In this document: one piece after another, positions 1 through 4,739 of the stretch
Layout of the letters: each line of letters starts with the position of its first letter
Numbering within the stretch: position 1 is the stretch's first letter
DNA from: a virus
Length of the DNA stretch: 27,411 nt
Virus record (IMG/VR): IMGVR_UViG_3300042396_000149
Span: 1-27,411 of that record
Reading direction: 5' to 3' (one strand)
Notes under the pieces: generated by a model
Databases searched by the model: none
What the model was told of the DNA's origin: nothing
The model's input: only the letters and a program-made list of their open reading frames with translations
Program-made: the position numbers and the translations under genes

Positions 1-826
1 TGCCGAGCAATTGCTTAAGCATGGTGATTTCTTTTACGCCAAACCGATCAGGACAAATCAAGTCCCCTTTCTTTGTGCGTGGATCATATTCGCCAAGGAT
101 GGTCTTGCGTCGCTTGCCATCGTACTCTGCGGGAATACAGATATGCTCCCAGCCTTTGATGTCGTTTAAGATATGACCGCTGATGTCACGCTCGTGCAGA
201 CGTTGCATGACCGTGACCATCGCATCGGTTTTTGGGTTATTAAGACGTGTTGACCACACCATGTCAAACCATTCGAGATCAGACTCGCGCATCGCCTCAG
301 ACTGAGCTGCCTGCGCACCGTGAGGATCATCGAGTATCAAACGCGAACCACCCTCACCAGTAGCTGTACCGCCAACAGACGTTGCGAGTCGATAACCAGT
401 CTTGTCATTCTCAAAGCGTTGCTTTGCATTTTGATCGCCAGCAAACTTGAACATGTGACCCCAACGCTCTTGATACCAAGGTGATTGGAGTAATCGTCTT
501 GTCTTCAAGTTGTCGCGTGTTGACAGCGTGCCAGAATAAGACGCGCACAAAAACTTCTGAGCAGGATCGGTGATCCACTCCCAAGCAGGCCACATCACTG
601 ACACAATCGTTGATTTAGAATGACGCGGAGGAATGTTGATTAGCAGTCGATGTATCTCGCCAGCACTGACTGCTTCAAGATGCTCGCAAATCTCCTCAAT
701 GTGCCATGACTCCATGAATTGAATACCGGGTTCAACCACATGCCATGACTGTTTAACAAATTCATAGAGTGAAGCAGACGCTGCGCGTCGTGCCTTCTCA
801 GCCTTAACTTTTTCAAGCAGTGTCAC
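1..826 (-). CDS. terL: Terminase large subunit, C-terminally truncated by the window edge
   Basis: ATPase of the DNA-packaging motor, which docks on the portal and threads DNA into the capsid. Reading the minus strand from a GTG at 826 gives 275 open codons to the window edge. Visible motifs: a terminase-type Walker A, PPRHSKS, at residues 66-72; Walker B LILDDP at 163-168; and MQRLHERDISG around residue 209, typical of the end of the ATPase domain. The nuclease domain, usually the last ~200 residues of a 450-500 residue protein, lies outside the window. The GTG start overlaps the terS stop as GTGA, which suggests translational coupling. Family assignment is firm; the exact start is inferred from the overlap. 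Confidence 0.93.
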   Translation of the reverse strand, partial: MTLLEKVKAEKARRAASASLYEFVKQSWHVVEPGIQFMESWHIEEICEHLEAVSAGEIHRLLINIPPRHSKSTIVSVMWPAWEWITDPAQKFLCASYSGTLSTRDNLKTRRLLQSPWYQERWGHMFKFAGDQNAKQRFENDKTGYRLATSVGGTATGEGGSRLILDDPHGAQAAQSEAMRESDLEWFDMVWSTRLNNPKTDAMVTVMQRLHERDISGHILNDIKGWEHICIPAEYDGKRRKTILGEYDPRTKKGDLICPDRFGVKEITMLKQLLG

Positions 827-2068: not shown

Positions 2069-2214
2069 GTAAGATCCTATTGAGAATAAGGCATCGCGCT
2101 AGGTAATTGACTGCTCTCCGCCTAGCGTGATTAAGAGTAAAGGTAAAACATGAACACGATAGCCATCACGCTATCACTAAAAACACTAACACCTAAATGC
2201 GTTTAGTGATAGCA

Positions 2215-2249
2215 AAAACCACCACGTCATTGATGCAAACAACGTGGTG
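2215..2249 (-). terminator. Terminator-like hairpin upstream of phoH
   Basis: On the minus strand CACCACGT pairs with ACGTGGTG (8 bp), with a small extra TTG/CAA pairing inside, and the stem is followed by GTTTTT. It could end the putative structured RNA before phoH, or attenuate phoH. The T-run is only five, so this is moderate evidence. Confidence 0.35.
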
Positions 2250-2442
2250 TAAAAACTCCCATTTAATCAATTCCAAACTTCCTACGGTACAAGATTGATT
2301 AAGCGGGCGACTAACCAAGGATCTGATAGTTGCCGGTGCTGATCTCCGGCTTAGTGTTATTTGGTGGTGTACTTTCAACCACTCCCAAGTTTCCTATTTG
2401 CACCGACGTGCCATTACCGCTGTGCATCAGCCTGCACATTAA

Positions 2443-2528
2443 CTATCAATAAAACAACATGGTGTAGCTGATTAGACTCTCTTAGCGCACGTTATCATCG
2501 TGACAAAACCATATTGTTTTATTGATAG
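2443..2528. repeat. Long inverted repeat, 15-bp perfect arms
   Basis: CTATCAATAAAACAA at 2443-2457 is matched by its exact reverse complement at 2514-2528. The helix continues inward for six more positions with one mismatch that becomes a G-U pair on the minus strand. The ~44-nt interior contains a small CACG/CGTG hairpin. It is either the trunk of an RNA multiloop or a cruciform-forming DNA site. Confidence 0.75.
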
Positions 2529-2626
2529 CTGCTTGTCTTTCCAAACTGTCAACATAACTAAACCCAAGCCACAAACCAGCCATTGATAAATCGCCAAAAA
2601 TAAAAATACTGGCTTGTGGTGGGCAT

Positions 2627-2727
2627 AAAAAAAAGCCTACTTAATTTCCATCGAAAGAGAGCGAGAATTGGCTCATGGAAATAAAAAAGGCTTTTGTTTA
2701 AATTCTCGTTCATTGGCTTTCGACCTA
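2627..2727 (-). ncRNA. Putative ~100-nt RNA with crossing stems and a terminator-like 3' end
   Basis: Two sets of complementary arms interleave. Set b: 2688-2695 with 2631-2638 (AAAAGCCT type, 8 bp) and 2675-2682 with 2644-2651 (8 bp). Set a: 2717-2722 with 2652-2657 (6 bp) and 2701-2708 with 2662-2669 (8 bp). The order a-b-a'-b' allows an H-type pseudoknot or two alternative folds. On the minus strand stem b runs straight into eight T residues (2627-2634), a rho-independent terminator signature; between its two halves three of five positions also pair on that strand. A TGTTATAAT extended -10 lies just upstream. It may be a small RNA or an attenuator after the primase-helicase gene. Confidence 0.45.
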
Positions 2728-2733
2728 GAAAAA

Positions 2734-2742
2734 ATTATAACA
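2734..2742 (-). promoter_or_regulatory. Extended -10 promoter element
   Basis: The minus strand reads TGTTATAAT, a perfect extended -10 (TGnTATAAT). No good -35 hexamer is seen 16-18 nt upstream, which extended -10 promoters tolerate. Start of transcription would fall near 2727, immediately before the crossing-stem element. Confidence 0.5.
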
Positions 2743-2770: not shown

Positions 2771-2885
2771 TCCCGTCCCATTCCCGTTCCCGTCCTCCCA
2801 CTCCCTAAAGGGAGTGTGGGACGGGCGGGAATCTAATGGGCGACTGTCCCGAATCCCGTTTGGGACAATTCGGGAATCACGGGAC
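2771..2885. repeat. CCCG/CGGGA repeat cluster with hairpins and a G-quadruplex motif
   Basis: Plus-strand C-runs at 2772-2774, 2777-2779, 2783-2785, 2789-2791 and 2797-2799 give five G-triplets on the minus strand with loops of 2, 3, 3 and 5 nt, a textbook G-quadruplex pattern. Next to them 2789-2806 pairs with 2809-2825 in a near-perfect hairpin. Further TCCCG/CGGGA words continue to the helicase stop codon and form TGTCCC/GGGACA and CCGAAT/ATTCGG pairings. The cluster lies just 3' of the primase-helicase gene, where it could be iterons or a structured 3' end. Confidence 0.6.
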
Positions 2886-4739
2886 ATCTTTTCTTAACCA
2901 GTAATATCCAGCATCATGCATTACAAGTCCTTGTTTTTCAAGGTCTTTTAGTCCTTCATTGAAGCGATTGGAGTTTGACTTGCTGTTATTGCTCTTAATT
3001 TCCTCATACGCAAATGGTCGCCACTCCTCACGGGACACCACAAATTCCCGTTCGCCCAAAAGTGTGCGGGAACCACCTAAATTTTGCGTCGCTGCGATGG
3101 CTTTTTTTAGTCCATCTAAACATTTTTGCGTAGCTGGTTTTAATAACGCTTCTTCTTGGGCAACTCCCACATACTCTAAGTAAACACCATCGATTTGCTC
3201 TTGCAGGTAATCATCATAAAAACATTCACCTTCCAGCGGCACAATCTTTAGCGCAAATTCCATGCTGCTACCTGCCGCAAAGTCTTTTGACTTGGTGCAG
3301 GAGAACGTCACTTCCATCTTGGATTTCTTTGTCATGCAAAATTCAGCATCCATACCAGCTTTGATGGCACTACTACCACGCGCACGACCTTTATCCCCAT
3401 GACCACTATGATGAACAGTCACAATCGCGCTGGTGTACTTCTTTGTGAGCATTTCAATGTTGGATAAATACATTGCCATATCCTCGCTGCTATTCTCATC
3501 ACCGTGCATATTTCTGTGCAGTGTATCGATAAAGATAGCGTATGGTTCTTGATCGGTAATCTCGGCAATGATCTGGATGATTTGTTGCACCGCATCTGCA
3601 CTCAACATGTTCACGGATTTTGTGCTAAAATAGATGTTATCTGGATCACGACTGTATTTCTGTTTTAGTGCTTGCATACGCATAGCTAAACCACGATGAC
3701 CTTCACCCGCGATGTAGATGACTAGACCCTTCTTCGTCATTCGTCCGTGCCAAGATATGCCTGTGCCAATACAAAACGCCCAGTCTAAAGCAACTAAAGA
3801 TTTACACGCGCCAGATTCCCCAAACAAGAGTGTGCTGGATCCTCGTTCCAGCACATCCTTTATTACCCAATCGGCTGGCTTCATCTTAGCCATTAATTCC
3901 TGAACCGACACAAACAAACTTTGTTTTCTTCCGCACACAAAATTGTAAACGGATTCAATTCCCGCGTTGTTTGCCATGTCGTTGAAGTCTTCACCCACAA
4001 TCGGTGGGTAAATAACTTCAACACCACACTTGCTTGCTTTCTCAACGCCTACGCCAGACGCATCGTTATCCGCGCAGATCAAAACGCGACCTTTGTATTC
4101 TTTGCGGATCATGTCGCACACTGGTTTCAAATTGCCCGCGTTGAATGCAACGACAACGCAAAATCCTGTGGCTTCATGTAGCGTCATTCCAGTGGCAAAA
4201 CCTTCAGTGATTAAAACCGTATCGCCTAGATTTCCGATCACATAGTAACCGCCTTGCATCTTGCCGCCAGTGTAGAAACGCTTGTCACCATCGGCTGAAA
4301 TAAACTGCAATGACTGGATTTCCTCGTTTGCACCATAGACGGGAACGACCAGGCGATTATCATAAAGCCGCAATCCAGAATCAGACTTGATGTTCTTGCG
4401 TATCAAATAATCATGGTTTTCAATCGTGGGCAACTTAGCGTACAGCTCTTGCGCATTAAAGGCAGCGGAGGCATATGCAAAGTCACGCTCCTCCTTGGCT
4501 TTTTTTAATGCTTCTTCACGATCATAATCGCTCGCTGAGGCTTGACCGTTAATAAACCAATAGTGAACCTCGCCAGACTTCCAATCGCCAAATGCTGCGC
4601 CTTTACCGTCAGCGAACATGGATACCCATCCAGACTTGTCCTTGCCAGTCGTCTGGAATCTTGTGATGGCGGAGTTCTTTATATATGGCGGAGGATTAAA
4701 TCCCACCGCACGGATTGCGTCGAGCAGTTCTTGACTCAT
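2877..4739 (-). CDS. TOPRIM primase - RepA/AAA-type helicase
   Basis: A 620-residue bifunctional replication protein. Residues 20-65 resemble the N-terminal domain of plasmid/phage primases (GWVSMFADGKGAAFGDWKSG); no zinc finger is seen. The TOPRIM core spans about 170-255, with E179 in LITEGFATG and the DxD pair D224/D226 in ICADNDASG. A RecA-like RepA-type ATPase follows: Walker A GESGACKS (307-314), Walker B AIFIDTLHR (401-409), and VTVHHSGHGDKGRARGSSAI (440-459). The C-terminus (about 560-620) looks like a winged helix. Walker A has Cys where Gly is usual before the Lys. It presumably primes and unwinds at the phage origin. Its ATG overlaps the HTH gene stop (ATGA). The 3' end runs into the CGGGA repeat cluster. 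Confidence 0.9.
   Translation of the reverse strand: MSQELLDAIRAVGFNPPPYIKNSAITRFQTTGKDKSGWVSMFADGKGAAFGDWKSGEVHYWFINGQASASDYDREEALKKAKEERDFAYASAAFNAQELYAKLPTIENHDYLIRKNIKSDSGLRLYDNRLVVPVYGANEEIQSLQFISADGDKRFYTGGKMQGGYYVIGNLGDTVLITEGFATGMTLHEATGFCVVVAFNAGNLKPVCDMIRKEYKGRVLICADNDASGVGVEKASKCGVEVIYPPIVGEDFNDMANNAGIESVYNFVCGRKQSLFVSVQELMAKMKPADWVIKDVLERGSSTLLFGESGACKSLVALDWAFCIGTGISWHGRMTKKGLVIYIAGEGHRGLAMRMQALKQKYSRDPDNIYFSTKSVNMLSADAVQQIIQIIAEITDQEPYAIFIDTLHRNMHGDENSSEDMAMYLSNIEMLTKKYTSAIVTVHHSGHGDKGRARGSSAIKAGMDAEFCMTKKSKMEVTFSCTKSKDFAAGSSMEFALKIVPLEGECFYDDYLQEQIDGVYLEYVGVAQEEALLKPATQKCLDGLKKAIAATQNLGGSRTLLGEREFVVSREEWRPFAYEEIKSNNSKSNSNRFNEGLKDLEKQGLVMHDAGYYWLRKDVP

Follow-up and report, generated by a model that had tools for sequence, protein, structure and literature searches.

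The window analysed here is a 27.4-kb viral contig whose minus strand carries genes for a primase/helicase (2877–4739), PhoH (1370–2068) and the large terminase subunit (2–826), together with a small ORF (823–1461) whose helix-turn-helix match is weak and sub-threshold. Between the primase and phoH genes lies a leader element (2742–2627, minus strand), the parts of which are collected in Table 1. The initial annotation had placed a promoter, crossing stems and a run of eight T in this segment, and all of them are present on the minus strand. In addition, a palindrome-rich stretch (2745–2876) is found between the primase stop codon and the promoter, and it occupies the same slot in L011, L013, L014 and L023. 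Its repeat words differ among the relatives (GGGAC/GTCCC, GTATAC/ATACATA and GTACGTACGC), and it could be a replication origin or the terminator of the primase operon.

Table 1. Positions of the promoter, the RNA arms and the downstream region in the window.
Feature	Position	Strand	Remark
Extended -10 promoter box TGTTATAAT	2734–2742; hexamer 2739–2734	-	Exact TATAAT with TG
Hairpin f (GGT/GCC) at the 5' end, loop = arm a	2715–2725	-	Helix 1 of alignment A5
Arm a (TCGAAAG)	2717–2723	-	Pairs with a' 2657–2651
Arm b (CGAGAATT)	2701–2708	-	Pairs with b' 2669–2662
Conserved linker and start of arm c (TTAAACAAAA)	2693–2702	-	In the first search pattern
Arm c (AAAAGCCT), outer terminator stem	2688–2695	-	Pairs with c' 2638–2631
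Arm d (ATTTCCAT)	2675–2682	-	Pairs with d' 2651–2644
Apical hairpin e (GAGC/GCTC), loop holds b' (2669–2662)	2659–2674	-	Covariation
Arm a' (CTTTCGA), immediately adjoining d'	2651–2657	-	Strict helix and alignment
Arm d' (ATGGAAAT)	2644–2651	-	Strict helix and alignment
Arm c' (AGGCTTTT) running into U8 (2634–2627)	2627–2638	-	Predicted intrinsic terminator, RNA 3' end
Structured region, element to phoH	2069–2626	-	z -6.8 for 2069–2728; slot alignment

The crossing of the arms, described in the initial annotation as a-b-a'-b', is real, while the actual order is nested, a-b-c-d-b'-a'-d'-c' followed by U8, so that a and b together cross c and d; hairpins f and e had been missed. In the window, all four helices are perfect Watson-Crick helices of 7–8 bp. 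In a single sequence one crossing pair is unremarkable, as 455 of 1000 dinucleotide shuffles equal it when G-U pairs are allowed. Of 1000 shuffles, 20 reach four Watson-Crick helices with 7 bp or more each, and none of 2000 contains the double crossing of two nested pairs totalling 31 bp. The decisive weight lies with the comparison of relatives. Ordinary folding of the element returns the terminator hairpin (-27 kcal/mol, z -2.5), because pseudoknots are beyond such folding. We also considered a leader peptide, and rejected it: the 51-aa ORF at 2558–2713 is not kept in other types, and in the B type it stops after three codons.

The loci of relatives were retrieved by the primase and PhoH proteins and by sequence patterns. 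The first pattern fixed the outer stem as AAAANCC and missed most types, and was then widened; the majority of copies were retrieved by a pattern that includes TTAAACAAAA and T8. The element, ~105 nt in length, is present in dozens of freshwater phage contigs, and in the slot alignment it takes the same place in the relatives, with clearly different sequences and the same pairings. In the first alignment, made of 10 sequences without the window's type, 95.9% of the cells are paired and double-sided changes occur at 20 of 37 pairs, versus 9.5 in shuffles. Model R1, trained without the window's sequence type, matches the window at 40 bits (E 2e-5), and model R2 matches it at 80 bits (E about 2e-15). 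The second model aligned 38 copies with 34 distinct sequences, giving 93.6% paired cells and a covariation score of 0.609, versus 0.165 for shuffles and 0.06–0.09 for slid versions. Across the 34 distinct sequences the four crossing arms covary, and the conservation of arm pairs in relatives, named in the initial annotation as a check, is thereby borne out.

For the individual helices of alignment A5, hairpin f, which is short (3 pairs) in the window's type, is paired in 90.7% of the cells and all 5 of its pairs change double-sided. Helix a/a' (helix 2) is 89.6% paired with 5 of 7 pairs changing on both sides, and b/b' (helix 3) is 90.2% paired with 6 of 8. Helix c/c' is 100% paired, d/d' 94% and hairpin e 97%, with both-sided changes at all 6 pairs of d/d' and all 4 pairs of e. 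Alignments fitted to the model are biased in favour of c, d, e and f; a and b, the pairs of which are absent from the model, receive no such bias. G-U pairs occur at many positions of the alignment, and the window has the f[a]-b-c-d-e[b']-a'-d'-c'-U fold with this covariation.

The near-invariant sequence in the element is limited to UUAAAC with AAAA. The TTAAACAAAA linker is kept in pattern-independent copies except L014 (TTAACAAAAA) and the second copy of L089 (TTAAACAAAT), and U7–U8 is also found in copies that were not required to have it (L014, L028, L047 and the second copy of L089). L090, L094 and L100 match the pattern and were discarded, since the fold is absent. The widened pattern TATAAT..TTAAACAAAWSC hit mostly unrelated loci, of which the model retained four more clear copies in three loci. 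A further locus, L118 (1008–1104, minus strand; 30 bits), has the -10 box, TTTAAACAAA, the outer stem and the U-tract with no clear b/e part, and its hairpin loop GGGCAT is complementary to a later ATGCCC; possibly it is a divergent form of the element without b and e. Overall, as judged from the alignments, compensatory changes maintain six helices, of which two cross, and by the same comparison the window's element belongs to a hitherto undescribed phage leader RNA family.

No known family covers it. Rfam 15 at gathering has no match for the window, with only chance-level matches at E up to 5, and 11 loci of other types gave no family match and only a tRNA elsewhere. No earlier description was found in a literature search made mostly outside subscription journals. 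With blastn, one element type found nothing in 50,697 records of isolated phages, among which the primase itself has only distant relatives. In 84,980 bacterial and archaeal species genomes there is one pattern match (L114, 2076–2183), on a phage-like contig in a Methylomonas bin. This contig carries a primase, the element, an ORF and a terminase, hinting at a methanotroph host, though the bin could be contaminated.

The two ends of the fold are marked by transcription signals. An exact TATAAT stands 4–7 nt before the RNA (hairpin f) in 39 of 40 distinct upstream flanks, beyond which the upstream sequences are unrelated and the -35 is not conserved; in the window, the sigma-70 type TATAAT with TG is accompanied by a weak -35 (3 of 6). 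Since the TATAAT keeps a fixed distance to f, the transcript is predicted to start at the base of f, about 2727–2728. At the 3' end, c/c' plus U8 make up the terminator domain of the window (-21.6 kcal/mol), a stem followed at once by the U-tract as in an intrinsic terminator, which a simple terminator scanner misses because the loop is long. After the U-tract there normally comes an ATGRGTAAAAT-like sequence and then, 11–17 nt on (mostly 13–14), a start codon. With so little space, an accessory gene at this place can have no promoter of its own there and should depend on read-through.

By calculation, the terminator domain alone reaches -14 to -30 kcal/mol across 15 types, and the values are less favourable, about -11 to -20 kcal/mol, when a/b pairing is forced in the absence of c/d (15 types except L105). 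The terminator stem contains a large internal bulge (a') and long A-U stretches, so termination could be weak. When the nascent RNA is cut after a', many minimum-energy folds contain the a/b helices. In hairpins f and e, the arm fills the greater part of the loop; few free nucleotides precede it and not one follows. Loop arms of kissing complexes are arranged likewise, and this resemblance suggests that the full knot is possible, although the complete a/b helix could either form alongside the c/d stem or exclude it.

What follows the U-tract is highly variable. About a dozen unrelated accessory genes have been found there in the relatives, including genes for GIY-YIG and HNH proteins, an MT-A70 methyltransferase, pRha regulators and at least six orphan small proteins. 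An unusual cargo gene is that of L023 (8148–9245), with an MT-A70 adenine methyltransferase domain and, by eye, a ParB-like start. Leader types and cargo genes shuffle independently, as L003/L006 and L004/L006 exemplify (same leader with different cargo, and same cargo with different leaders). To judge from these comparisons, the main role in the relatives is to lead swappable accessory genes rather than to control phoH and terminase.

The leaders themselves are also exchanged. L015 and L020 share 97.2% and 99.5% identity in the flanks and 78.9% in the element, where the pairings are kept; that is, the arm sequences vary much faster than the flanks yet remain complementary. In L114, a and d come from one type and b and e from a second, a combination that would require either multiple exchanges or strong selection acting on every pairing. 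A search of whole records revealed three copies in G008 and two each in G002 and G018, with arms that differ within each contig. In L183, two differing alleles (153–256, plus strand, and 4090–4195, minus strand) face each other about 4 kb apart. The calculated cross-pairing of co-resident copies is mostly weaker than self-pairing, the exception being two a/a' crosses in L183 at -5 to -6 kcal/mol. As the arms diverge fast but stay complementary, and as co-resident copies differ, allele-specific RNA recognition by the element is possible. At the level of sequence, then, the family, its pairings, the promoter box, the U-tract, the cassette position and the allele swapping can be taken as established.

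The window is peculiar in having no accessory gene behind its element. In the window, L002 and L008, ATGCCCACCACAA stands directly after the U-tract, and in relatives this sequence is found behind the stop codon of the cargo gene, as TAAGTTTATGCCC. The accessory gene of the window was thus probably lost by deletion between two TTTATG repeats. L109 has lost its ORF independently, and the RNA is intact both there and in window/L002/L008. In the slot alignment, 2069–2626 of the window corresponds to the accessory ORF plus the structured region of relatives. This region contains swappable hairpin modules framed by CTATCA...TGATAG, which we also observed at L050 743–817, L109 6994–7068 and L012 5438–5504, and in some relatives the module is a tRNA or a tRNA-like fold; in the window no tRNA was found. 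The region resembles a large phage noncoding RNA and has no Rfam match except tRNA. GOLLD and ROOL were tried as candidates, and neither matched the slot of the window or any of four relatives.

The initial annotation had also proposed that the segment insulates or gates transcription into the structured region, phoH and terminase. Across the 808 bases that separate primase from phoH in the window, no TATAAT occurs other than the element's own. Across the loci compared, a TATAAT lies within 90 nt of the conserved core of the structured region in 14 of 40 distinct flanks, and 13 of these 14 belong to loci with no element ahead of the region (the other, L068, has both); in the element-free loci it stands 40–42 nt upstream of the core. 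The promoter of the element thus seems to have replaced that of the structured region, in which case the polymerase has to pass the U-tract to transcribe the region. This argues for gating with read-through, which is plausible, and disfavours plain insulation.

We consider it probable that the element is a conditional attenuator, i.e., a mobile, promoter-borne leader RNA, and the earlier suggestion of an attenuator or short regulatory RNA named the right class, a conserved, pseudoknot-capable RNA with a promoter and a terminator-like U-tract. Termination, read-through and regulation are what we infer for it. Transcription would start at the -10 box, with hairpin f as the 5' end of the RNA. Two pairings would involve hairpin loops: arm a, displayed by f, would bind a', and b', displayed by e, would bind the single strand b. 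The stem adjoining the U-tract would be built from c and d together with d' and c'. The default product would be an RNA of ~100 nt ended at U8. Some polymerases, perhaps a regulated fraction, would read through, by which the accessory gene and whatever lies beyond would be expressed. Because the a/b pairing can precede the synthesis of d' and c', it could fix the level of read-through or switch it. In the window, with its accessory gene absent, the element would gate the structured region, phoH and terminase directly.

Several other explanations have been weighed. The RNA may be a free-standing small RNA of ~100 nt acting in trans, with the adjoining gene merely fed by leaky termination, and its targets could be copies of itself reached via loops a and b'. 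We regard this as rather unlikely, though much agrees with it: the promoter and the U-tract exactly bound the fold, loops a and b' are displayed in hairpins, the arms evolve much faster than the flanks, no two co-resident copies are alike and cross-pairing among them is mostly poor, and the RNA is intact in the two gene-less backgrounds (window/L002/L008 and L109). Against it, the distance from U-tract to start codon is tight across unrelated genes, as is expected of a leader. A related idea, distinctly unlikely in our estimate, is that the element is an identity tag, whose terminated copies, acting in trans, use loops a and b' to recognise nascent RNA of their own allele and force its termination. 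If so, a resident phage or cassette would silence an incoming matching cassette, as plasmid incompatibility RNAs do, and the arms would diversify into compatible groups with the scaffold fixed.

It is quite improbable that the RNA modifies the elongating polymerase in the manner of HK022 put or EAR and so passes its own and later terminators. HK022 putRNA, ~70 nt with two stem-loops, binds the zinc-binding domain of the polymerase and suppresses downstream terminators (PMC9378689). Both are structured phage RNAs bearing on termination directly after a promoter (an early one for put); the element shares with putL this position and a compact conserved fold (PMC9378689), and a long, structured, terminator-rich region lies downstream. 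However, put consists of two plain stem-loops, whereas the element ends in its own terminator-like stem with a U-tract at the 3' end, and its arms vary freely where a polymerase-binding surface should hold its sequence. A site of DNA-level recombination or cassette exchange, with inverted repeats that have no RNA role, is very improbable: cassettes do shuffle between conserved TATAAT and ATG ends, but G-U pairs at many positions, and crossing, loop-framed pairs joined to a -10 box and a U-tract, are RNA features. A type III toxin-antitoxin locus, which has the matching order of promoter, pseudoknotted RNA, Rho-independent terminator and toxin gene (PMC5086642), is scarcely credible here, as the tandem RNA repeats are absent (a single copy per site) and the downstream genes are mutually unrelated, with no toxin family among them (no ToxN/CptN/TenpN match in any scanned).

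Among known systems, the T4 promoter-stem-loop cassettes (Arbiol et al. 2010, doi 10.1093/gbe/evq006) appear, by analogy, nearest to the element in behaviour. Mobile regulatory cassettes of this T4 type reportedly accompany the shuffling of accessory phage genes. Both are small segments of promoter plus structure, mobile with accessory genes; the element differs in its double-crossing pseudoknot, its covarying arms and the U-tract before the start codon, and in the phages that carry it. The C4-type antisense RNAs of P1/P4 (Rfam RF01695) control transcription by pairing between two separate RNAs. They have paired a/b complementarities in common with the element, which in contrast holds both strands in one RNA of ~100 nt and has no Rfam match.

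Structured 5' leaders are also known from the Downstream-peptide and glnA riboswitches, the former before short orphan ORFs, and in the attenuating crcB and pfl riboswitches the structure overlaps the terminator (PMC2864571). Unlike these, the element has no Rfam match and no shared cargo pathway, and its arms, UUAAAC excepted, are without the fixed sequence expected of a ligand pocket. In the leaders of T4 homing endonuclease genes, RNA structure hides the ribosome binding site (PMC3014915). Phage RNA structure is thus associated with endonuclease genes in both cases, but the cargo of the element also includes non-endonuclease genes, and the U-tract that closes its structure lies ahead of the binding site.

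Overall, this work adds a well-supported structured RNA family that is absent from Rfam and comes almost only from uncultured freshwater phages. It suggests that phages may add and swap accessory genes under control, each gene with its own promoter and folded gate. In addition, arms that change so rapidly and yet preserve their pairs are unusual in a leader, and through them allele-specific RNA control becomes directly testable.
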